NCBI GenBank assembly: GCA_016235865.1 | Contig: JACRIK010000021.1 | Location: 161,226-225,225, forward strand | Reading direction: 5' to 3' | DNA length: 64,000 nt | From: Planctomycetota bacterium | GTDB lineage: Bacteria; Planctomycetota; MHYJ01; JACQXL01 | Shown here: in pieces, positions 3,544 through 56,447 of the stretch | Position numbering within the stretch: position 1 is the stretch's first letter | Layout: each line of letters opens with the position of its first letter | Translations under genes and position numbers: made by a program | The notes under the pieces: generated by a model | What the model was told of the DNA's origin: nothing | Database searches by the model: none | What the model saw: the letters and a program-made list of their open reading frames with translations, nothing else

Positions 3544-3638
3544 AAAACAATAGAATTCCGGCGCCGCCACACCGAATTATACCCCCATCCCCCTCACCCC
3601 TCCACTTCCTCCCCGGTATACCCTGTAGGGTAGCCCAG

Positions 3639-3990
3639 CCCCCGGTATAGATTAGCCCAGCCCCCGGTATGGAGTAGCCCAGCCCCAGGTATAGAGTAGC
3701 CCATCTCCCCCCATAGAGTAGTCCATACCCCGGTATGGAGTAGTCCATCTCCCCCTATGGAGCAGTTCAGCCCCCCGTATGGAGTAGCCCATCCCCTCCT
3801 ATGGAGTAGTCCATCCCCTCCTATGGGGGAGCCCACCACCCCCTGGGGGGATGCCCACCACCCCCCATAGGGTAGCCCTACTCCCCCCTGGGGGATACCC
3901 ACCACCCCCCATAGGGTAGCCCAGCACCCCCCAAGGGGATGTCCAGCACCTCACATAGGGATGCCCATACCCTCGTGGAGGGAAGCCCTA
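3639..3990. repeat. Direct tandem array, 22-bp unit, 16 copies
   Basis: Sixteen consecutive degenerate 22-bp units, typified by GGTATGGAGTAGCCCA flanked by C-runs, run without a break from 3639 to 3990; a partial first unit begins near 3611. Copies drift gradually (TAGCCCAG, TAGTCCAT, ATGCCCAC). Open frames through it on the minus strand are a by-product of the repeats. It fills most of the gap after the hypothetical gene. Confidence 0.9.
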
Positions 3991-4019: not shown

Positions 4020-4272
4020 CCTTAGAGCGGAAAGGCATCGCTAACAAGCGGAAAGTTCTTGCTAACAAGCGGAAAGTTCCCGCTAACAAGCGGAAGGTTC
4101 CCGCTAACAAGCGGAAAGTTCCCGCTAACAAGCGGAAAGTTCCCGCTAACAAGCGGAAGGTTCCCGCTAACAAGCGGAAAGTTCCCGCTAACAAGCGAAA
4201 AGTTCCCGCTAACAAGCGGAAAGTTCCCGCTAACAAGCGGAAAGGCATCGCTAACAAGCGGAAAAGTTCCGC
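4020..4272. repeat. Direct tandem array, 21-bp unit, 11 full copies
   Basis: Units begin CTAACAAGCGGAAAG at 4041, 4062, 4083, 4104, 4125, 4146, 4167, 4188, 4209, 4230 and 4251, exactly 21 bp apart, with a degenerate unit before 4041. The units just inside both ends carry GGCATCG in place of GTTCCCG, so the array is symmetrical at its edges. Because 21 is a multiple of three, several frames stay open (a seven-residue SGKFPLT repeat), but no start signal supports a gene. It is not a CRISPR, since there are no unique spacers. Confidence 0.93.
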
Positions 4273-6750: not shown

Positions 6751-6827
6751 CCACAGATTGCACAGATTAATAAATAGAAATACTTAAATACGTATTAACC
6801 ACAGATGAACACAGATTACACGGATTA
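6751..6827. repeat. 9-bp word array, CACAGATT type
   Basis: CCACAGATTGCACAGATTA (6751-6769) and ACCACAGAT..ACACAGATTACACGGATTA (6798-6827) repeat a 9-bp word. The TAA stop of the gene at 6825 lies in the last word. Confidence 0.85.
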
Positions 6828-7352: not shown

Positions 7353-7368
7353 CTTTTGTAATCCTTAC

Positions 7369-7387
7369 AATCTGTGTCATCTGTGGC
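7369..7387. repeat. 9-bp word array, reverse orientation
   Basis: AATCTGTGTCATCTGTGG, two 9-bp words, is the reverse complement type of the array at 6798-6827. It ends directly at the stop codon of the metalloprotease gene (7388). Confidence 0.8.
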
Positions 7388-9973
7388 TTAAAACGGTTTA
7401 CTTACCTTCCACTCCAGCGCCGTGGTTATCCGTTCTTTGATATCATCCAGATGGGCCCTGGTCAGGGTATCAAGTTGTTCCAGATTAATAGTATTGATGT
7501 GATTCTTTATGGTCAACATGTCCTGGCGAGCCAGGGCAATGGCGTCCGAGGGATAGCTCCGAGAGTCGGACAGGTAGATGGATATTATTTTCTCCATATG
7601 GGCCCGCTGGAGATTGCGCCGGAATGGGTTGATGTTTTCTGCCTTGGTAGCCTCGGTCCAGATGCCGTCCCGGACGCCATGGAATAATTCCTCCAGCCCG
7701 AATCTCGGCTCGCCTTCTTTGTACTTGAGGGCCATATTGTTGAGCCGGCGCAGGACGGTCGGTTCATACATATAATTCAGGGCTGATTGCTGGATAGACA
7801 GGATGGTGTTGTAAATCTGGACATCCAGGGTCGGCCCTGAGTCGGCTCCGGGCATCCGTTCGGGCGCCAGTTTATTCAGGACCTCGCTGTCCGGCAGTGA
7901 CTTCTCGGACAGTGAGAATATATTATTGACGATAAAATCCAGCGCCTGCTGCTGTTTCGCGCTCGCTACCGGTTCAAACGGCACCCGGCCGTCTGTATCG
8001 CCGATGTGGTCCCGGCGGTGGTAGATGCCGCCGATGAATCTGGCCGCCAGGGTAGTTCCAATGGCGTATTCCTTGATGCCCTGATTAAACACCCGGCGCA
8101 TCTTCTGATAGCCCTCGCCCGGCTTGGAGAATTTAAACTCTATCTTGCCCCAGAGTTCCTGGGCCAGCTTGAGACGTTGGTTGACATATTCCAGCTGGTC
8201 ATTGCCCAAATCCCAGAGGGTGCAGGTTGGGTCGATGCCGGTGGGTGAATTACCGTGGCAGTCCTCGTCAGTGCCGTAGGCCAGTTCCGGCTGGGCGCAT
8301 CTGGCCGCGATGGCCTTGAGTTGGGTCAGTTCTTCATCTGGGGCCTTGGCCCCTAATGGCTTGTAGGCGTATTCAATGGCCCAGCAATCATAAGGGCCGA
8401 CCGTAGAACTCCAAAATTCACCCTGCTTGGCCGGGTCAACCGAGATATTGGCCGGATTATAATCCATTACCGAAGCGATTAGGCCTTTTTCACTGGTTAG
8501 GGCTTTATCATGAAGTTGCTCGGCTGAAAGCATATTGCTGGCCTTGAAATTATGCCTCAGGCCCAGGGTGTGCCCGACCTCGTGGACCGCCAGGTCGGTC
8601 AGGTAATCGGCCACGAATTGCTCGGCTTCTTTTTCCTTGCCGTCCAGGAATGCCCGGGCTGTTAACATCGACGAGGCAAAGGCGGCCTGATAGGCCAGTC
8701 CATTGGCGTAATTGCAATAGGCGTTGTTGATACCGAGCGGATTGATGACTTCTTCAAACTCGGCGTAATTGACGCGGGCCATATCGGCGCTGATGCGGAT
8801 GTCGGCCGCGTAGAGCTGGCCGGTGAACGGGTCTTCGTGCGATGGCCCGACTGCATAACCAGAGCCGGGCCTGATGAGCCAGCGGATGGTGTTATAGCGC
8901 GCGTCAGCCGGGTCCCAGTCCGCGTCGTCCGGTTGCTGATTCACTACCACCGCATCCTTGAATCCGGCCTGTTCAAAGGCCTTGTTCCAGAGCAGCACGC
9001 CCTTTTTTATCGGTTCGCGGTATTCGATGGGAATGGTCTTTTCCAGCCAGAAGACGATGGGTTTCTTGGGCGCGGACAGGGCCGCGGTTGGGTCTGATTT
9101 TTCCAGGTTCCAGCGGTTGATGTAGCGGACAAAAGGCGTCTCCGGTTTCATCGATGAATAATCCTGGTACATGGTGATAAAATGCCCGACCCGGTCGTCG
9201 GCCAGTCGCGGGATGTAATTATCCTGGGGCAGGGCTAAAATGGAATAATAATACCTGATGAATAAACTTTTGTCAGGAATAGTTGCCGAGTAAAATCCCT
9301 TATTGGAGCGGAAATGCATGGTGATTTCTATATCGGTATTGGCCGGGAATGATTTGAGCGTGGAAAAGAAGCTGTTGTCCCGGTCAAAGGAGAAATCAGA
9401 TTTAGTGGCTTCGTTTAAGTGCTGGGCCAGGTTGTATCGGTCAAACAGGAACAGGTCATTGAGCGAGACCAGGACGGCTCCGGTAGTGGAATGTGGTTTA
9501 GACAGGACGATGGATGAGGAGATGAGCGAATCGCTCACCCCTTTTTCCACGGCCCGGAACGCGGGTTTATCGCGGTCGGCCCGGACCAGGACGTTCTTAT
9601 GAATTAATTGAATGCGCTTGTTGACCTGCCTGAAGAAGAACGGGAAATTGTCCTCCATCGCCGCCGCATCCAGAAAAGTGCCGTCGCCGGATTCCCGGGT
9701 GACCGAGCAGAGCATAATTTTGTCCATCTGCTCGGGTTTTAGTTCCAGATAGGCCTTGCCGTCCTTGGGATTATGGTAGATGGTCAGCATGCCGGTAATG
9801 GGTTTGCATTCCTTGATAATCTCGGCGAAGTCCTTTTCATCGCCGTTCTTTTTATCCTCTTTGGCCGCGTCATTTTTGGCGTCGGTCGGCGGTAAGGCGG
9901 TTGAGGCGCAGCCGGCATATAATAATGACAACACAAACAAAGAGCCTCCGAAAGCGCATAATTTTCTTAACAT
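7388..9973 (-). CDS. Zinc-dependent metalloprotease lipoprotein (DUF5117/DUF5118 type)
   Basis: An 861-residue exported protein. The N-terminus MLRKLCAFGGSLFVLSLLYAGC is a lipoprotein signal with lipobox LYAGC. The zinc site HEVGHTLGLRHNF lies near residue 463 and carries both the HExxH and the third histidine of the metzincin-like pattern. The long N-terminal part (LFDRYNLAQHLNEATKSDFSFD, FHFRSNKG) and the spacing to HExxH match the large family of bacterial zinc-dependent metalloproteases with DUF5117 and DUF5118 regions. Likely role: degrading peptides or proteins at the cell envelope. It is single; a start at 9973 is preceded by GGAGAAAAATGCT. Only the zinc-binding motif and signal are directly seen; the substrate is unknown. 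Confidence 0.85.
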   Translation of the reverse strand: MLRKLCAFGGSLFVLSLLYAGCASTALPPTDAKNDAAKEDKKNGDEKDFAEIIKECKPITGMLTIYHNPKDGKAYLELKPEQMDKIMLCSVTRESGDGTFLDAAAMEDNFPFFFRQVNKRIQLIHKNVLVRADRDKPAFRAVEKGVSDSLISSSIVLSKPHSTTGAVLVSLNDLFLFDRYNLAQHLNEATKSDFSFDRDNSFFSTLKSFPANTDIEITMHFRSNKGFYSATIPDKSLFIRYYYSILALPQDNYIPRLADDRVGHFITMYQDYSSMKPETPFVRYINRWNLEKSDPTAALSAPKKPIVFWLEKTIPIEYREPIKKGVLLWNKAFEQAGFKDAVVVNQQPDDADWDPADARYNTIRWLIRPGSGYAVGPSHEDPFTGQLYAADIRISADMARVNYAEFEEVINPLGINNAYCNYANGLAYQAAFASSMLTARAFLDGKEKEAEQFVADYLTDLAVHEVGHTLGLRHNFKASNMLSAEQLHDKALTSEKGLIASVMDYNPANISVDPAKQGEFWSSTVGPYDCWAIEYAYKPLGAKAPDEELTQLKAIAARCAQPELAYGTDEDCHGNSPTGIDPTCTLWDLGNDQLEYVNQRLKLAQELWGKIEFKFSKPGEGYQKMRRVFNQGIKEYAIGTTLAARFIGGIYHRRDHIGDTDGRVPFEPVASAKQQQALDFIVNNIFSLSEKSLPDSEVLNKLAPERMPGADSGPTLDVQIYNTILSIQQSALNYMYEPTVLRRLNNMALKYKEGEPRFGLEELFHGVRDGIWTEATKAENINPFRRNLQRAHMEKIISIYLSDSRSYPSDAIALARQDMLTIKNHINTINLEQLDTLTRAHLDDIKERITTALEWKVSKPF

Positions 9974-9996: not shown

Positions 9997-10025
9997 TATC
10001 TGTGTAATCTGTGCAATCAGTGGTT
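9997..10025. repeat. 9-bp word array between rarA and metalloprotease
   Basis: TATCTGTGT, AATCTGTGC and AATCAGTGG are three successive 9-bp words. The TGA stop of rarA (10017-10019, read on the minus strand) is created by the word CACTGATT. Confidence 0.8.
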
Positions 10026-11549: not shown

Positions 11550-12677
11550 ATGATAGAGATGTTCAAGGAGTGGTATGACGCCCGGCACGAGTATGCCAAG
11601 GAATGGAAGAAAAATAATCCCAAAGGCAAGGTGATGGGTTATTTCTGCACCTATGTGCCGGAAGAGATTCTCTATGCGGCTGATGTTCTGCCGGTGCGGA
11701 TCCTGGGCAGTCACGAGCCCCAGGATGTGACCGAACCCCATATCTTCGGGATGTATTGCCCGTTCTGCCGAGATTGCCTGGCCCAGGGACTGAAAGGCCG
11801 ATATAATTATTTAGACGGAATTATGATCGCCCAATCGTGCCTGCATATCCGGCAGGCCTTTACCTCCTGGCAGCTGCATATCCCGGTGCCATACAGTTAT
11901 TACCTGCCCATGCCCAATAATCTCCAGACCAAGTTTGCCCTGCCTTATCTGCGCGGTGAATTTGAGGCCTTTAAGAAATCGGTCGAAGGCTGGACCGGCA
12001 GGAAGATTACGGACCAGGACCTGGACAAAGGCATCGAGATAATGAACCAGAGCCGCCGGCTGATGAAACAGGCCTATGAAACCCGTAAGGCTGCCAACCC
12101 GCCGATGACCGGGCTGGAAGCGATGTATATGGCGGTGTCCAACCAGATGACCGACAAGCGGGAGCACAGCCGGATTATTGAAGAAGCGTTGAAGACGCTG
12201 CCTAAGCGGAAACTGGACCGGGAAACCGGGGCCCGGCTGATGATTGTGGGCAGCGAGGATGATGACACCGAATTTATCAAGATGGTGGAATCGGTCGGCG
12301 TTACGATTGTGATTGACGACCATTGCACCGGCTCGCGTTATTTCTGGAACGAGGCCAAGCCGGACCCGGACCGGTTGAACGCCATTGCCCGGAGATATAT
12401 CGAGCGCCCGGCCTGCCCGAGCAAGGACTGGCCGGCCCGGACCAGGTTGCCGCATATATTAAAATTAGCCAAGGATTATAATGTCCAGGGCGCGATTGTC
12501 ATCCAGCAGAAGTTCTGCGACCCGCATGAACTGGATATACCGGCTATTACCAAGATGTTAAAGGAAAATAATATCCCGACCCTGTTCCTGGAATTTGACG
12601 TGACCGTACCGATTGGTCCGTTCAAGACCCGGGTTCAGGCGTTCTTGGAAATGATATCAGAAGACGCGTTGTTCTAG
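11550..12677 (+). CDS. bcrC: Benzoyl-CoA reductase, BcrC-type subunit
   Basis: A 375-residue member of the BcrB/BcrC/HgdB (2-hydroxyacyl-CoA dehydratase) family. In the class I ATP-dependent benzoyl-CoA reductase, BcrB and BcrC form the catalytic half that takes electrons from the ATPase half (BcrA/BcrD) to reduce the aromatic ring to a dienoyl-CoA. Visible features are YFCTYVPEEILYAADVLPVR, the cysteine block YCPFCRDCLAQG, QSCLHIRQAF, and the C-terminal FCDPHELDIPAI ... FLEFDVTVPIG. Length matches BcrC. The start follows AAAGGAG. The dehydratase sister family is an alternative, but the presence of oah and dch-like genes 7-9 kb downstream favours benzoyl-CoA. The stop codon borders a 10-bp word array. 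Confidence 0.85.
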   Translation: MIEMFKEWYDARHEYAKEWKKNNPKGKVMGYFCTYVPEEILYAADVLPVRILGSHEPQDVTEPHIFGMYCPFCRDCLAQGLKGRYNYLDGIMIAQSCLHIRQAFTSWQLHIPVPYSYYLPMPNNLQTKFALPYLRGEFEAFKKSVEGWTGRKITDQDLDKGIEIMNQSRRLMKQAYETRKAANPPMTGLEAMYMAVSNQMTDKREHSRIIEEALKTLPKRKLDRETGARLMIVGSEDDDTEFIKMVESVGVTIVIDDHCTGSRYFWNEAKPDPDRLNAIARRYIERPACPSKDWPARTRLPHILKLAKDYNVQGAIVIQQKFCDPHELDIPAITKMLKENNIPTLFLEFDVTVPIGPFKTRVQAFLEMISEDALF

Positions 12678-12737
12678 AGGTTACATAAGGTTGCGGAAGG
12701 TTACAGGAGGTTGCTTAAGATTACAATTAGGTTGCTA
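12678..12737. repeat. 10-bp word array GGTTAC/GGTTGC, six units
   Basis: Six units of exactly 10 bp (AGGTTACATA, AGGTTGCGGA, AGGTTACAGG, AGGTTGCTTA, AGATTACAAT, TAGGTTGCTA) fill the gap. They begin on the base after the bcrC stop and end in the start codon of the four-helix gene, so the ATG lies in the last unit. GTTAC and GTTGC variants largely alternate. Confidence 0.95.
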
Positions 12738-13138
12738 TGGAAAAGAAAACAGCGGCATATGAGAAATTGAGATTTTACCAGGATATTTGTGAGATTAGAA
12801 GGGCAGTATACTTAATTACCGAGCGTTTTGCTAAAAGTCATATGCGTTTGGTATCACAAATGCGCGATGCGGCCAGAAGCGCCAAGCAAAATATCAGGGA
12901 AGGTTACAAAAAAGGGACTATCGGGGAGTTTATCCATAGTATTAATATAAGTCGGGGGTCCCTGGAAGAATTAAGCGGTGATATTGAAGATTGCCTTGAA
13001 GACGGTTTAATGACAGCGGAGGAATTTAAGGAGATAAGTGGGCTTATTAAAAGCGCTGATTATTTATCAGACCGTTATATTAAAGCCATTAGTAAGATGA
13101 GGGAAGCAGGAACGTGGCGGACCCCGAGGGTCAAGTAA
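12737..13138 (+). CDS. Four-helix-bundle protein (23S rRNA IVS / S23 type)
   Basis: A 133-residue all-helical protein of the family found in 23S rRNA intervening sequences and related in fold to the Avd accessory protein of diversity-generating retroelements. Family marks are a first helix with FYQDICEIRRAVYLITERF, then RLVSQMRDAARSAKQNIREG, SRGSLEELSGDIEDCLEDGL and a C-terminal helix. Its function is not established; some members are thought to bind nucleic acid. It splits bcrC from bcrB, reads in the same direction, and is bounded exactly by inverted 10-bp arrays: its ATG is in the left array and its TAA is the first word of the right array. No ordinary ribosome-binding site is present apart from the array's own AGGTT. 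Confidence 0.88.
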   Translation: MEKKTAAYEKLRFYQDICEIRRAVYLITERFAKSHMRLVSQMRDAARSAKQNIREGYKKGTIGEFIHSINISRGSLEELSGDIEDCLEDGLMTAEEFKEISGLIKSADYLSDRYIKAISKMREAGTWRTPRVK

Positions 13139-13178
13139 CTTCTTGTAACATCGTGTAACTTATTGTAACATTTGTAAC
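13135..13178. repeat. 10-bp word array GTAAC, five units, inverted relative to the left array
   Basis: GTAAC occurs at 13135, 13145, 13155, 13165 and 13174 (spacing 10, 10, 10, 9). It is the reverse complement of the GTTAC word at 12678-12737. The first GTAAC supplies the TAA stop of the four-helix gene; the array ends before the AAGGAG of bcrB. Confidence 0.95.
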
Positions 13179-13193
13179 TATCAAGGAGCATCT

Positions 13194-14501
13194 ATGAGCA
13201 ATTTGTATCCCACCGAACAACTGAAATCCTGGAACAAGGCCAAGGAAATCAGGGAGAACTATTACCGCGATTATGCGGACGCCAAGAAAAAGGGCGGCTT
13301 GAGGTGGGCCGGCGGCGCCTGGTCTTTCGGGGCCATCCCGGCCGGATTGGGCGATGATGTCTTCCCGATTACCGGCGAACCTTACGGCGCTTCCATCGCC
13401 TGGAACAAGGAATTCGCTCTGGCCTGCCAGGAAGCGGCCGAGAAAAAGGGTTATGCCCGCGACCTGTGTTCTTATATGCGCAGTTACTGGGGTTCCATTA
13501 TTCTTGATAAATACCTCTGGGGCGGGCCGTTCCCCAAACCGGATTTTATGTGGCAGGACCATATCTGCTGCAGTCATTCCAAATGGTATCAGGTGGCTAA
13601 TGAGTTGGAAGGCGGTAAGGTGCCGGTATTTGAGATTGACGTGGCCGTCGGTCCGGAGGGCGAGGTCAATAAGAACCGGGTTGATTATGTGGTTAACCAG
13701 ATGCTGGAGGGTGTTGAATGGCTGGAAAAGGTGACCGGCCGGAAATACGACGACCAGAAATTGATTGAAGCAGTGTATAATGAATGCCGGGCCACCTCGG
13801 TCTGGGCTGAGATATGCGAGCTGAACAAGACCGTGCCGGCCCCGCTGGACGAGAAGACCATGTATTCATTATATGTGCTGGGCACGCTGATGAAACACAG
13901 CAAGGTAGTGGCTGATTACTATGAGGAACTGCTGGCTGAGACCAAGGACCGGGTTAAACGCGGGATTGCGGCTATTCCCAACGAGCGTTGTCGGGTAATG
14001 AGCGATACCCAGCCGCCCTGGGCGTTCCTCAAGGTGTTCAGATATTTGGAGAAATTCGGCTGCGTATCGGTCGGCTCGCTTTATACATTCGGGTTAATCG
14101 GATTATGGGAGGTTAAACCCGATGGCACCTGGGGCGCCAAGACCACGCCTCAGCAGAAGGGCATCAAGATAAAGACCCGCGAACAGGCGCTGCGCATCCT
14201 GGCCGAATGGAATCTGGCCAAGCCGGAATGGCAGCACTTCTATTCGCCGGCCCTGAAGAGCGATATGATGATACGGATTGCCAAGGAATGGAAACTCAAC
14301 GGCGTGATGCTTCATTATAACCGCGGTTGCGAAGGCTTGAGTTTGGGCATTGCCGAGAACCGCCTGGCCCTGCAAAAGGCCGGATACCCGGTCATGACCT
14401 TTGAAGGCAACATGGGCGATGAGCGCGAGTTTGACGAGACCCGGACCATGGCGCGCATCGATGCCTTTATGGAAACGCTGGATTTAAAGAAAATGGAATA
14501 A
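13194..14501 (+). CDS. bcrB: Benzoyl-CoA reductase, BcrB-type subunit
   Basis: A 435-residue partner of BcrC in the catalytic half of class I benzoyl-CoA reductase, cytoplasmic and oxygen-sensitive. Visible motifs are [34 protein letters not shown], the cysteine pair in [14 protein letters not shown], and the C-terminal [20 protein letters not shown] leading to [14 protein letters not shown]. Length agrees with the ~435-residue BcrB subunits. The start follows CAAGGAGCATCT. With bcrC it would normally be adjacent; here a four-helix gene and two word arrays separate them. BcrA and BcrD are not in the window, so this enzyme would need them from elsewhere. Confidence 0.86.
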
Positions 14502-18296: not shown

Positions 18297-18872
18297 ATGA
18301 GATATATTATTGCCGTATTGCTGATATGCACAATGGAATTGGTATCCCTGGCTCAGGATAACAAGCCCGTGGGTGAACCTGTCAATAATTATAATAATGA
18401 GCCGGAGAAGAAGGAAATGAGTTTCTATATCGGTCCCTGGTATAACCAGTTTGATGCCGACCTGAATCTCAAGGGTAATATCGGCTGGGTGGCCGGGGTG
18501 CGTTATCCGGTGGATACCGGCGGCAAGATACCGATTAATATGGCACTGGAGATAACCTCTTTACGGACCGAGACGAAAAGCGGTAAGGGCGTGAGTGTCA
18601 CCTCTATGGCTTTAGGCCTGGGTGAATACGGTTTTATTCCCGAGGAAAAGCGGCTCAGGGTGACGTTCCTGGGCGGGATTCAGCGCTATGGCGGCTTGGG
18701 TGATTCCGGCACCTTCTTTACCCTGCGTCCCAAGTTCAGCCTTTGGAGCACGCCGTCCACGAATCTTGAAGGGGTGGCCGGGCTGGATTTTGTCCGGACC
18801 AATGCCGCGGGCGGTGAGAGTCATTGGGAAATGAACTTTCCACTCGGGCTTAATTTGAGTATCAATTTTTGA
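18297..18872 (+). CDS. Exported hypothetical beta-rich (outer-membrane-like) protein
   Basis: A 191-residue protein with a signal peptide (MRYIIAVLLICTMELVSLAQ, cleavage near AQ-DN). The mature part has alternating polar/hydrophobic strands and glycines (FYIGPWYNQF, GWVAGVRYP, VTFLGGIQRYGG, LNLSINF) and ends in an aromatic residue, as small outer-membrane barrels do. The ATG at 18297 is preferred to the upstream TTG because GGAGG lies just before it. No family recognised. Its stop codon runs straight into a CACAGATT array. Confidence 0.7.
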   Translation: MRYIIAVLLICTMELVSLAQDNKPVGEPVNNYNNEPEKKEMSFYIGPWYNQFDADLNLKGNIGWVAGVRYPVDTGGKIPINMALEITSLRTETKSGKGVSVTSMALGLGEYGFIPEEKRLRVTFLGGIQRYGGLGDSGTFFTLRPKFSLWSTPSTNLEGVAGLDFVRTNAAGGESHWEMNFPLGLNLSINF

Positions 18873-18930
18873 CCACAGATTACACAGATAGACACAGATT
18901 TTCCGGAAATCATTCGTGTAATAAGTGGTT
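18872..18930. repeat. 9-bp word array with degenerate inverted half
   Basis: ACCACAGAT, TACACAGAT and AGACACAGATT are followed by ATTCGTGTA ATAAGTGGT, a decayed reverse-complement half. It fills much of the gap before oah; the oah ribosome-binding site AAAGGA lies after it. Confidence 0.75.
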
Positions 18931-20090: not shown

Positions 20091-20162
20091 ACCACAGATT
20101 ACACGGATTGCACTGATTATACTTTAAGGGAAATCTGTGTCATCTGTGAAATCTGTGGTTGC
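20091..20162. repeat. 9-bp word array, three units then three inverted units
   Basis: ACCACAGAT, TACACGGAT, TGCACTGAT, a short middle, then AATCTGTGT, CATCTGTGA, AATCTGTGG. It starts on the base after the oah stop codon and can fold into one hairpin. Confidence 0.9.
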
Positions 20163-21526: not shown

Positions 21527-21618
21527 GGTTACAAGAGGTTACCTGATGTTACATGAGGTTACAAGATGTTACAGCAACCTTCTGTAACCATTTGTAACTT
21601 AATGTAACTTCTTGTAAC
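21527..21618. repeat. 10-bp word array, 5 GTTAC units then 5 inverted GYAAC units
   Basis: GTTAC at 21528, 21538, 21548, 21558 and 21568; GCAAC/GTAAC at 21574, 21584, 21594, 21604 and 21614. Both halves keep a strict 10-bp step and pair with each other around a very short centre. It fills the whole gap between SDR and the dch-like gene up to its AAAGG ribosome-binding site. Confidence 0.96.
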
Positions 21619-33213: not shown

Positions 33214-33277
33214 CAGTCAGCTGGTCGGCCAGTCAATCGGTTGACCGGAAGACAGGCAGACCGGAAAACCGGCAGAC
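33214..33277. repeat. 8-bp word array, GTC type turning to GAC type
   Basis: Eight 8-bp units: CAGTCAGC, TGGTCGGC, CAGTCAAT, then CGGTTGAC, CGGAAGAC, AGGCAGAC, CGGAAAAC, CGGCAGAC. The word changes strand in the middle. It fills the gap between the tRNA and the purF stop codon (33280). Confidence 0.92.
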
Positions 33278-34763: not shown

Positions 34764-34867
34764 TGGTCTCCCTGTCTACCGGTCATCCGGTCTATCTGTC
34801 AGGCGGTCATTCGGTCTACCTGTCAATAGGTTGTCCGGTCTATCGGTCGGTCTGTCGACCGGTTATT
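34764..34867. repeat. 8-bp word array, 13 units, GGTC/TGTC type
   Basis: Thirteen units of exactly 8 bp (for example CTGTCTAC, CGGTCATC, CGGTCTAT, CTGTCAGG) run from 6 bp before the purF start into the end of the four-helix gene, whose stop codon (34863-34865) lies in the unit CGGTTATT. Confidence 0.96.
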
Positions 34868-35219
34868 TCTTCCTTAAATATCGCCTGAGTCCATCTATTA
34901 GTTTACGACAAAGCGTTGCGGTTTGATATATCCTGTCAAATTTATTCTGGTTAATATAGTTTTGGTCTAATGCGACGTATAAACATGATTGAATCTCAGA
35001 AGCGGAGTTTCTTGAATAGCCCAAATAGCGCAGGAAATCATTATCTCCGCCGCTATCAAATCCTTCGGCAATATTATTCATTGTAGAAATTGCTGACCCT
35101 GTTATCTGGTCTACCAGTCGCCTGTCTTTGGTAAAATTAGCGGCTATCTGGTAAACCATTTTTGTAAGTTCCCTGGCTTTCTTCCAGCACTCTAAATCTT
35201 CGAATCTATTTACTTTCAT
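34863..35219 (-). CDS. Four-helix-bundle protein (23S rRNA IVS / S23 type), second copy
   Basis: A 118-residue all-helical protein of the same family as that at 12737. It starts MKVNRFEDLECWKKARELTK, the classic opening of the family, then RRLVDQITGSAISTMNNIAE, GDNDFLRYLGYSRNSASEIQ and SCLYVALDQNYI. It is only distantly similar to the copy at 12737, so they are not recent duplicates. It is enclosed by 8-bp word arrays: the left one overlaps its stop, and the right one begins 4 bp from its start codon and supplies AGGA as a possible ribosome-binding site. Function unknown. Confidence 0.92.
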   Translation of the reverse strand: MKVNRFEDLECWKKARELTKMVYQIAANFTKDRRLVDQITGSAISTMNNIAEGFDSGGDNDFLRYLGYSRNSASEIQSCLYVALDQNYINQNKFDRIYQTATLCRKLIDGLRRYLRKK

Positions 35220-35223
35220 TATG

Positions 35224-35335
35224 CAGTCATCCTGTCTATCGGTCTCCCTGTCTGTCTGTTAACCGGCTAACCGGCCGACTGTTAGACCGACCCACCGACT
35301 GGCCGACCGGCTGACTGGTTGACCGGCCGACTGTC
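35224..35335. repeat. 8-bp word array, 14 units, GTC type turning to GAC type
   Basis: Fourteen 8-bp units: CAGTCATC, CTGTCTAT, CGGTCTCC, CTGTCTGT, CTGTTAAC, CGGCTAAC, CGGCCGAC, TGTTAGAC, CGACCCAC, CGACTGGC, CGACCGGC, TGACTGGT, TGACCGGC, CGACTGTC. It spans the whole gap from the four-helix start to the NRAMP stop (35336). Confidence 0.96.
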
Positions 35336-36704: not shown

Positions 36705-36752
36705 TCTGTCTATCTGTCTGCCTGTCTTCCGGTTCGCCTGTCGACTGGCTGA
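36705..36752. repeat. 8-bp word array, 6 units
   Basis: TCTGTCTA, TCTGTCTG, CCTGTCTT, CCGGTTCG, CCTGTCGA, CTGGCTGA. It lies between the NRAMP start (36700) and the EamA stop (36756) and fills the gap. Confidence 0.92.
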
Positions 36753-36755
36753 CCA

Positions 36756-37204: not shown

Positions 37205-37260
37205 CCGGTTTTCCTGTCTACCGGTCAACCGGCCGACTGACTGACCGGAAGACCGAATAT
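37205..37260. repeat. 8-bp word array, 7 units, GTC turning to GAC
   Basis: CCGGTTTT, CCTGTCTA, CCGGTCAA, CCGGCCGA, CTGACTGA, CCGGAAGA, CCGAATAT, upstream of the EamA start. Confidence 0.9.
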
Positions 37261-44854: not shown

Positions 44855-45120
44855 TTTGTCGAGGGAGGTGAAAACTTCACTGGGGGCTGGGAAAGTTTCA
44901 CTGAAGGCATTGAAGGTTTTACGAGGGCAGTGATGGTTTCACTGAAGGCGGTGAAAACCTTACTGAGGGCGGTGAGAGTTTCACTGAGGGCGTGGAAAAC
45001 TTTACTGAAGGCGGGGAAAGTTTCACTGAGGGCAGAGTAAGTTCATTGAGGGCGGTGAAGATTTCATTGAGGGCGGTGAAGATTTCACTGAGGGCGGTGA
45101 AAGTTTCACTGAAGGCGGTG
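44855..45120. repeat. Direct tandem array, 21-bp unit, 13 copies
   Basis: Thirteen units with core TTCACTGAGGGCGGTGAAA, nearly all exactly 21 bp (two are 20). Each unit contains a small inverted pair (TTCAC...GTGAA). It fills most of the 409-bp gap before 45258; the remainder holds the palindrome at 45187. Confidence 0.93.
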
Positions 45121-52773: not shown

Positions 52774-53319
52774 ATGAACAATCTGCTTCTTCACATCTGC
52801 TGCGGAGTGTGTGCCGTGGGATTAATCAATAAGTTTAAGCAGGATGGCATTAAGGTTACCGGCTACTTTTATAATCCCAATATCCACCCATTTATGGAAT
52901 TCCGGAAACGCTTGAGGGCGGTTGAGGTCTTATCCGAGCAGGAGAAAATGCCGATACATTATGAGACCTCCTATGGGTTGGATGAATTCCTGGTTGCCGT
53001 GGCGCCTTATGCGAAGATATACGAAAAGAACCGATGCCTGAAATGCTATGAGATGCGGTTGATTAAGACCGCCCAGAAGGCCAGGGAATTAGGATGCGAT
53101 TCGTTCGCCTCGACCCTGATGGTCAGCCCGCAACAGGACCAGGACGCTATTAGAAATATCGGAGAAAAGGTTGCCAAGGCAGTTGGAATTGGTTTTAAGT
53201 ATGAGGTAGTGACCGATTTGTATCATGAATGCAAAGAACTGGCCAAGAAACGCCAGTTATACCGCCAGCAGTATTGCGGGTGTGTGTTCAGCGAGTATGA
53301 GAGATATAACAAAAAATAA
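52774..53319 (+). CDS. queH: Epoxyqueuosine reductase QueH
   Basis: A 181-residue Fe-S enzyme that reduces epoxyqueuosine to queuosine in tRNA. The DUF208 motifs are seen: LLLHICCGVCAVG at the N-terminus, YFYNPNIHPFMEFRKR, KNRCLKCYEMRL and the C-terminal YRQQYCGCVFSEYER. The ATG at 52774 is chosen because the family begins immediately before LHICC. It is close to tgt (54760), which inserts the queuosine base, so this is a queuosine locus interrupted by a SpoIID gene. Confidence 0.95.
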   Translation: MNNLLLHICCGVCAVGLINKFKQDGIKVTGYFYNPNIHPFMEFRKRLRAVEVLSEQEKMPIHYETSYGLDEFLVAVAPYAKIYEKNRCLKCYEMRLIKTAQKARELGCDSFASTLMVSPQQDQDAIRNIGEKVAKAVGIGFKYEVVTDLYHECKELAKKRQLYRQQYCGCVFSEYERYNKK

Positions 53320-53354
53320 GGATACAGGATGCAGGATGCAGGATACAGGAAATA
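53320..53354. repeat. 7-bp word array GGATACA/GGATGCA, five units
   Basis: GGATACA, GGATGCA, GGATGCA, GGATACA, GGAAATA. It begins on the base after the queH stop codon, and the start codon of the SpoIID gene (53336) lies inside it, in GGATGCA. Confidence 0.9.
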
Positions 53355-54592
53355 AGGCGCCTGTTCTGGTGTTCCTTTGTGCCTTTGCGGTAATAATCTT
53401 GGTTGCCGGCTGCGCTTCCAACGGCTCGGCGTCATCGTTTTACCGCTATGAGACGGCCAAAAAGGTATTGAGCGAGCCGCCGTATCTACAGGTTTTGCTG
53501 GCCGAATACGGCAATGCTGATTCGGCCGTTATCAAGGTCGGCGCTGCCTATGCCTTATATCCTTATCTGGACAATCGGGCCAATAAATTCATTGGCCCGC
53601 AGCCGTTATCAAAGCAGAATGCCATGTTTGAGCCGGTCAAGGTATCAAACAATGACGGCGATATCGTGCTGGGCGGGGTAAGCAATTTCTTTGGCAATGA
53701 TATCGTGCTGGTGCCGGCCAGCAGTTCAGCCCTGATTTTGGTGGGCAAACGGAATTACAAGGGTCGCCTGAGGATAAAGGCCCTGCCCAATAACAAGATT
53801 GCTCTGGTCAATATCATTGATATGGAAAGTTACCTGCCCGGCGTGGTCTCCAACGAGATGGACGAATCTTGGCCCCAGGATTCGCTGGCGGCTCAGGCCA
53901 TATCGGCCCGGTCATTTGCTTTTTACCGCATCAAGCAATCGGCCGTGGGGCAGTCCAAGAAGCTGTTTGACTATGACCTGACCGACGACATCTATTCCCA
54001 GGTCTATCGGGGCGAGGAGCGGACCGGTCCCAAGACCAGGCAAGCCGCAGAACAGACCCGGGGCATTATCCTGAGTTATGATGCCATGATTTTCAACTGC
54101 CTGTTCCATGATACCTGCGGTGGGCATACCGAGCCCGGTGATTTGGTCTGGGGCGGAACGGTTGTTCCGCCGCTTAAGGGACGCCCCTGCGGTTTCTGTT
54201 ACCATTCCAAGCACTCGCAGTGGAAGGTTGAATTCACCCAGCCGGAGATTATCAAGGCGCTGGACCTGAAAGGCGAAATCGATGATATATTGATAACCAA
54301 GGTTGCGCCGGGCGGGCATATCGTGGAACTGGCGCTTAAAATATCCGGCCGGGCCGAGCCGATTACCTTCCAGGCCCAGAAATTCAGGATTGCCCTGAAT
54401 CCCAATAAACTCAAGAGCACGCTTTTTAAGGTGACTAAGAAAGGCGTCTTGTTCGAATTCACCGGCCGGGGCTGGGGCCATGCTGTCGGTATGTGCCAGG
54501 AAGGCACGCGCGGCATGTCCGAAAACGGATTCACCCCGCTCCAGGTCCTGGAGTATTATTACCCCCAGGCCAGGGTGGTTAAGATTTATTAG
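53336..54592 (+). CDS. SpoIID/LytB-domain lipoprotein
   Basis: About 418 residues from the ATG at 53336 (MQDTGNKAPVLVFLCAFAVI), a lipoprotein signal with lipobox LVAGC; longer in-frame starts would run into queH. The body is a SpoIID domain: DMESYLPGVVSNEMDESWPQ, DSLAAQAISARSFAFYRI, LFDYDLTDDIYSQVYRGEE, FHDTCGGHTEPGD, and the C-terminal GRGWGHAVGMCQEGTRGMSE. SpoIID proteins are lytic transglycosylases acting on stripped peptidoglycan in spore formers; in non-spore formers they probably remodel the wall or assist amidases. Its start codon is created by an array unit. Confidence 0.9.
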   Translation: MQDTGNKAPVLVFLCAFAVIILVAGCASNGSASSFYRYETAKKVLSEPPYLQVLLAEYGNADSAVIKVGAAYALYPYLDNRANKFIGPQPLSKQNAMFEPVKVSNNDGDIVLGGVSNFFGNDIVLVPASSSALILVGKRNYKGRLRIKALPNNKIALVNIIDMESYLPGVVSNEMDESWPQDSLAAQAISARSFAFYRIKQSAVGQSKKLFDYDLTDDIYSQVYRGEERTGPKTRQAAEQTRGIILSYDAMIFNCLFHDTCGGHTEPGDLVWGGTVVPPLKGRPCGFCYHSKHSQWKVEFTQPEIIKALDLKGEIDDILITKVAPGGHIVELALKISGRAEPITFQAQKFRIALNPNKLKSTLFKVTKKGVLFEFTGRGWGHAVGMCQEGTRGMSENGFTPLQVLEYYYPQARVVKIY

Positions 54593-56411: not shown

Positions 56412-56447
56412 ACCACAGATTACACAGATTTCGCAGATTAAGCAGAT
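56412..56447. repeat. 9-bp word array, four units
   Basis: ACCACAGAT, TACACAGAT, TTCGCAGAT, TAAGCAGAT, filling the gap up to 4 nt before the pyrK start; no other ribosome-binding site is apparent. Confidence 0.92.

Follow-up and report, generated by a model that had tools for sequence, protein, structure and literature searches.

A four-helix-bundle gene enclosed by inverted short-repeat arrays in a Planctomycetota genome, and its possible role in a REPIN/RAYT-like mobile element

Why should a small gene for a four-helix-bundle protein lie, almost to the base, between two inverted arrays of 10-bp repeats inside a benzoyl-CoA reductase operon? We explored this question in a stretch of 64,000 nucleotides (the window; positions 161,226 to 225,225 of contig JACRIK010000021.1) from a Planctomycetota bacterium. 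Our analysis suggests, with a probability of about 0.6, that an array hairpin and a gene of the S23p/Avd fold in its loop make up a two-part mobile element similar to the REPIN/RAYT systems. We found that the array-gene architecture accompanies most of the PF05635 genes tested in several phyla, and that the unit has occupied differing loci and is missing from the junction studied here in relatives. Gene-free hairpins that share the motif of their host are scattered over the genome, all outside open reading frames (ORFs) in the tested set and usually right after stop codons. Judged from these sequence comparisons, the feature is much more general than the single locus had suggested.

The upstream neighbour is a benzoyl-CoA reductase subunit gene of the HGD-D fold (11550-12677, plus strand; PF06050, E = 6.8 × 10−87), which ends with TAG at 12675-12677. 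The left array (12680-12735, plus strand) begins 2 bp later. Its six 10-bp units start at 12680, 12690, 12700, 12710, 12720 and 12731, so that the final step is 11 bp, and read GTTAC, GTTGC, GTTAC, GTTGC, ATTAC and GTTGC; all but the fifth, ATTAC, fit GTTRC (5/6). The array ends 1 bp before the ATG (12737-12739) of the four-helix gene (12737-13138, plus strand, 133 amino acids), whose TAA (13136-13138) falls within the first unit of the right array (13135-13178, minus strand). The five GTAAC units of the right array, the reverse complement of the left-array motif, start at 13135, 13145, 13155, 13165 and 13174 (final step, 9 bp). Just past them lie the ribosome-binding site (13183) and the ATG (13194) of a second reductase subunit gene (13194-14501, plus strand; PF06050).

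Both arrays were read directly from the sequence and recovered by Tandem Repeats Finder (TRF) and by a chain search, so the inverted arrays of the initial annotation are real. That annotation had named the neighbours bcrC and bcrB. However, they score above the cut-offs for bzdN (TIGR03190, 515 bits against 453.8) and bzdO (TIGR03191, 684.6 bits against 448.6), and are not bcrC and bcrB in the strict sense. The strict pattern GGTTRCN4GGTTRCN4GGTTRC occurred 12 times in the 2.67-Mb genome and the reversed pattern 0 times, and the arrays are thus not a matter of chance.

The encoded protein belongs to PF05635 (E = 2.3 × 10−18; 66.8 bits, cut-off 33.8) and TIGR02436 (57 bits, cut-off 24), the family of the 23S rRNA intervening sequence protein S23p. 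An AlphaFold model (pLDDT 92.6) was compared with known structures; the best match was S23p 2gsc (TM about 0.78, 1.4 Å), followed by 2rld and by Avd (4dwl and 8ub7; TM 0.65-0.72). The predicted fold is that of S23p and Avd. The S23p of Xanthomonas is a homopentamer (PMC4990558), and by analogy with its solved relatives our protein is probably a pentamer as well.

To what extent do arrays accompany this family? A survey of four-helix genes for flanking short-period arrays, as proposed in the initial annotation, showed inverted arrays at 62 of 78 PF05635 genes and at 11 of 160 control ORFs (odds ratio 52, Fisher p ~ 2 × 10−30), an association being called at a flank-complementarity score of 28 or more. 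The studied locus itself scores 22 because its spacers are not complementary, and hence the threshold undercounts. The genome has five further four-helix genes, and inverted arrays surround all of these as well as most such genes in the order; the motifs are unrelated and the units measure 6-11 bp. Accordingly, the idea that arrays are limited to the subfamily of the studied gene was rejected. The commonest unit length around PF05635 genes was 7 bp. Units of 7-8 bp in the majority of PF05635 elements also led us to give up DNA binding in helical phase (10 bp being one turn) as a rule for the whole family. On plasmids (Cyanobacteriota, Riemerella, Gemmatirosa, Azospirillum) the proportion was 17/19, mostly with heptamers such as GGGAACA, GGGTGTA, AGCTAAA and TCAGAAG. 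Three cyanobacterial proteins that are 78-83% identical are encoded at three plasmid sites unrelated to one another, in each case with arrays of the TCAGAAG type and soon after the upstream gene.

The window holds a second PF05635 gene (34863-35219, minus strand, 118 amino acids; TIGR02436 90.6 bits, match at C21:196118-196426) between PurF-like and Nramp genes. On one side of it is an 8-bp CCGGTCTA/CTGTC array (34765-34865, plus strand) and on the other its inverted partner of GACCGRC/CCGACTGG units (35260-35333, minus strand). Both were found by TRF and by flank alignment (34812-34865 with 35268-35325), and the flank score of these CCGGTC-type arrays was 37, which 0 of 100 shuffles reached. 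Further 8-bp GACCGG/CCGGTC arrays were seen between the neighbouring genes at 33238-33277, 36705-36754 and 37223-37253. Elsewhere, four-helix genes were noted between cas6 and cas4 in two cyanobacterial CRISPR loci (L270 and L278, with AGCTAAA and AGGTGAC, respectively) and between cas10 and cmr3 (L276). An inverted 8-bp array hairpin was also seen inside a mobF relaxase coding sequence from Nostoc (L286, 44453-44546).

We then consider whether array and gene behave as one insertable unit, as the initial annotation had supposed. Orthologues within the order are 67-76% identical, and those of the studied genome (G000), G006 and G007 lie inside arrays at differing loci: the one in G006 between glycosyltransferase and epimerase genes, and the one in G007 with a YggS-like gene as one of its two neighbours. 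In G002 the orthologue occupies the bzdN-bzdO junction as in G000, yet with 9-bp units in both arms. The junction is filled in these two genomes and empty in two others of the same family, G001 (13-bp gap) and G003 (25 bp). G008, from another family, has a decayed copy there (array, internal gene fragment and array remnant), and G006 has an array remnant. These empty and decayed sites, together with the unit at unrelated loci, give the supposition good support. A scan of genome contigs found 17 relatives, 52-77% identical, in Planctomycetota, Omnitrophota, Ratteibacteria, WOR-1 and Saganbacteria, nearly all of them visibly within inverted arrays of GTTAC, GTTTC or GTTAA type. The gene is patchy, being present in 3 of 294 sampled genomes of the phylum. 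Viral contigs and phages held no relatives of it, and carriage by them was rejected on this ground.

Arrays of this family are found without the gene as well. At 21528-21618 of the window (no strand assigned; chain search, RNA fold z = −6.7), between genes for a short-chain dehydrogenase/reductase and an enoyl-CoA hydratase, a back-to-back hairpin joins five GTTAC units directly to five inverted GYAAC units. Well over a dozen such arrays exist in the genome. Their polarity is constant: the reading direction of GTTAC faces the loop, and the reverse arrangement was never seen. Among 44 gene-free hairpins from several phyla with at least three exact units per arm, five was the commonest number of units (right arm 30/44, left arm 23/44). 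The innermost unit of GTTAA-type hairpins is often GTTGC, and a gene-bearing element of Ratteibacteria (L148) has the arms of these gene-free hairpins with the gene placed between the innermost units. Core bases are about 97% invariant and the 5-nt spacers are degenerate. None of 38 hairpins lay within an ORF and 30 of 35 lay between co-directional genes, at a median of about 5 nt past the upstream stop. Near-identical gene-free hairpins were found at unrelated sites, their homology stopping near the array ends. Only the copy with the four-helix gene is a candidate autonomous partner for them. Rfam covariance models gave 0 matches over 8 loci.

Host by host, the motif of the gene-free arrays matches that of the gene-bearing element. 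It is GTTAAYA in Ratteibacteria (G306), GTTTCTTAA in Omnitrophota (G301 and G302), GTTACYGA in Saganbacteria (G308) and GTTACAARAG in the Planctomycetota order studied here. The 9-bp GTTACAAAG is found both in the G002 element and in the gene-free arrays of G002 and G003, as against the 10-bp units of G000. We scored gene-free units by weight matrices built from gene-bearing arms. The own-host trace was 115.2, and the permutations gave a mean of 74.6 and a maximum of 112.6 (0/20,000); this p-value is optimistic, given the partial relatedness among hosts and a search pattern that restricted the detectable arrays. In the protein tree, the GTTAC-type part and the GTTAA-type part each contain members from Planctomycetota and Omnitrophota; many inner forks are weakly supported. 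The motif appears to track the protein clade more than the host phylum.

It had been suggested for this locus that the protein may recognise or make the arrays. The covariation of gene and motif supports recognition indirectly, and we regard it as likely from the sequences compared; the making of arrays by the protein found no support. The initial annotation had also reckoned that arrays equally common without such a gene would point to a chance association. Gene-free arrays do outnumber gene-bearing ones, but they share the host-specific motif and the arm layout, and therefore are read as satellites of one system and not as chance.

At the RNA level, gene-bearing and gene-free elements fold better than shuffled sequences (the studied gene-bearing element has z = −3.2). 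Arm pairing is stronger on the sense strand of the gene in 40 of 58 elements, with a mean difference of −8.4 kcal/mol. The folding and the strand bias suggest transcription and possible excision by RNase III. However, mutation linked to transcription could yield an equal bias.

These results may be explained by the following mechanism. The four-helix protein, probably a pentamer, would recognise the repeated cores, which would account for the fixed cores, the drifting spacers, the five-unit arms, and the joint change of motif and unit length in gene and gene-free copies. TRAP is an RNA-binding ring protein, and a five-fold ring of the present protein would in a TRAP-like manner read five tandem cores with the spacers left free. 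The gene-free hairpins would be non-autonomous satellites whose copying is driven in trans, like that of REPINs by RAYTs. In operon transcripts the arms would form double-stranded RNA that RNase III could cleave, as in 23S rRNA intervening sequences, and insertions after stop codons would thus be tolerable. As a guess, the hairpin may be a substrate for the replication or repair machinery of the host, which would copy the DNA.

Several findings weigh against this interpretation. Two genomes, G003 and G008, have gene-free hairpins although no gene of the subfamily was found in them; both are incomplete drafts. Of the other PF05635 loci in the order, 12/42 were below the array threshold, as were two plasmid loci (one in Nostoc, the other encoding a Prevotella protein that has a 'suffix domain'). 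Unit number and length (6-11 bp) vary outside the GTT-type subfamily, and the match between five units and a pentamer may be confined to it. Across the hairpin the spacers show no in-register covariation (48% match, against 50% out of register), which means that exact pairing of the arms is not selected for; selection on an exact RNA hairpin was rejected as the main constraint. No target-site duplication was visible at the bzdN-bzdO junctions or at near-identical hairpin copies, and the protein has no recognised catalytic domain. The support is comparative throughout, much of it from draft metagenome-assembled genomes.

The same observations may be approached from the side of the host. The protein could be a regulator that binds RNA or DNA. 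The arrays past stop codons would then be its binding sites, maintained because they serve termination, operon coupling or mRNA stability, and would not be selfish DNA. The position of the hairpins a few nucleotides past stop codons and mostly between co-directional genes, their almost invariant cores and the stronger pairing on the sense strand all agree with this, and hairpins of short tandemly repeated repetitive (STRR) sequences between cyanobacterial hupS and hupL have been proposed to influence transcript stability (PMC2670836). Yet regulation is unlikely in our opinion, as the gene jumps together with its arrays, is patchy within the phylum and passes between phyla, relatives have lost the bzdN-bzdO copy or hold a decaying one, near-identical copies stand at unrelated sites, and the strand bias could come from transcription-linked mutation. 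We consider it distinctly improbable that the repeats are like miniature inverted-repeat transposable elements (MITEs), moved in trans by an unrelated transposase such as Y1/HUH, with the four-helix gene as a passenger. The gene-free hairpins do resemble MITEs and REPINs in size and placement, and Y1 transposases are present in 13 of 15 array hosts. However, no Y1 gene was found in the array-rich draft genomes G303 and G309, and none of the Y1 loci examined, which were those fetched by the Y1 search, is flanked by GTT arrays. A RAYT-like Y1 gene near GTTAA four-helix arrays (L245, G304:C18, 1034-1600 and flanks) has its own REP-type palindromes (AAAGTCTGAAGACTT), so that two hairpin systems adjoin there. 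Y1 transposases were rejected as the mover on the ground that the examined loci are not array-flanked and have palindromes of their own elsewhere. Nor would one expect a passenger to show this association at most PF05635 genes in many phyla, or to covary with the array motif.

Since the fold matches Avd and the ribonucleoprotein of diversity-generating retroelements (4dwl, 8ub7), and the elements are probably transcribed, an Avd-like protein might work with a reverse transcriptase that copies hairpin RNA into DNA. This idea is largely refuted and keeps very little credence, because 13 of the 15 hosts with arrays, among them the studied genome (96% complete), lack reverse transcriptase genes (PF00078, RVT_1); a reverse transcriptase partner was accordingly rejected. 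Other short arrays are common in the window, and short tandem repeats born by slippage might have arisen beside a small gene by chance. But the cross-phylum association with PF05635 genes and not with control ORFs refutes such an origin, as do the inverted orientation with constant polarity and a motif shared by both sides, the roughly five units per arm, and the motif covariation; its probability is negligible.

For the two-part mobile element, the nearest working model is by analogy REPIN/RAYT (PMC3116915). Both have a single-copy protein gene flanked by inverted repeats and dispersed intergenic gene-free inverted doublets that share the repeat of that gene, and in both protein and repeat co-evolve, as the permutations and the tree suggest here. 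However, the RAYT is a Y1/HUH transposase and our protein a PF05635 four-helix bundle, and the REP is a 16-20-bp palindrome whereas our repeat is an array of short degenerate units. MITEs are likewise short, intergenic, inverted-repeat and multi-copy, but the arms of the studied elements are tandem arrays, and neither a parent transposon nor a target-site duplication was found. Avd of diversity-generating retroelements (PMC10053308) has the same four-helix fold, in contrast with the lack of a reverse transcriptase nearby or in most array hosts.

The intervening sequences (IVSs) of 23S rRNA in Leptospira and Coxiella (PMC4990558) also have a PF05635 ORF, looped out by a stem of inverted terminal repeats. 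In Coxiella, tandem heptamers (GACAGAT) stand right before the start codon of the S23p ORF (PMC4990558), which places this IVS, by its sequence, in the array-gene architecture. Ralph and McClelland in 1993 already proposed that IVSs are mobile (cited in PMC4990558), and IVP ORFs are present in rRNA insertions of candidate phyla radiation bacteria (PMC11270868). Unlike an IVS, the studied element lies between bzdN- and bzdO-type operon genes, outside the 23S rRNA gene, has repeat arrays as both arms, and has dispersed gene-free satellites of the same motif. Excision by RNase III was demonstrated for the Coxiella IVS (PMC4990558) and may apply to our element, as the pairing bias suggests. Cyanobacterial STRR hairpins (PMC2670836) and TAACTGA heptamers (PMC4679880) were described without a mechanism. 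They too are degenerate intergenic arrays, often hairpins, and four-helix genes lie between inverted heptamer arrays on plasmids of Nostoc, Calothrix and others. The units at the studied locus are 10 bp long, whereas most of the cyanobacterial plasmid relatives have the 7-bp length. We found no paper that links S23p or other four-helix genes to flanking arrays or STRR, in a literature search that was thin in subscription journals.

Arrays of other kinds were also observed in the window. A second dispersed family has 9-bp units (ACCACAGATTACACAGATT / AATCTGTGTCATCTGTGGT) at 6791-6827, 7359-7395, 9998-10022, 18872-18904, 20093-20159 and 56416-56447, in places inverted around ordinary genes; no adjoining four-helix gene was seen. 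A 7-bp GGATACAGGATGCAGG array at 53315-53356 has no obvious inverted partner. Longer tandem arrays of a different kind, with 21-22-bp repeats, lie at 3630-3967, 4039-4270 and 44861-45120.

PF05635 (S23p/IVP) proteins are a widespread and large orphan family that shares the fold of Avd, and their structures have been available since 2006. The origin of the cyanobacterial short-repeat hairpins is unexplained, and the mobility of 23S rRNA IVSs has been a conjecture since the 1990s. Our best reading is that these IVSs are a special case of the array/four-helix element. More tentatively, and with somewhat more doubt than confidence, PF05635 proteins may define widespread mobile hairpins ('four-helix/array elements') that have no recognisable transposase or reverse transcriptase, in which a ring protein reads the cores in both arms and mobilises satellites in trans, with 23S rRNA IVSs and cyanobacterial STRR hairpins included. 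The finding would unite the three: the protein would read the arrays, and the arrays would be the ends of the element and its satellites. If true, this would be a type of mobile element without a known recombinase, and it would give the PF05635 family a direct assay, by motif-specific binding and motif swaps.
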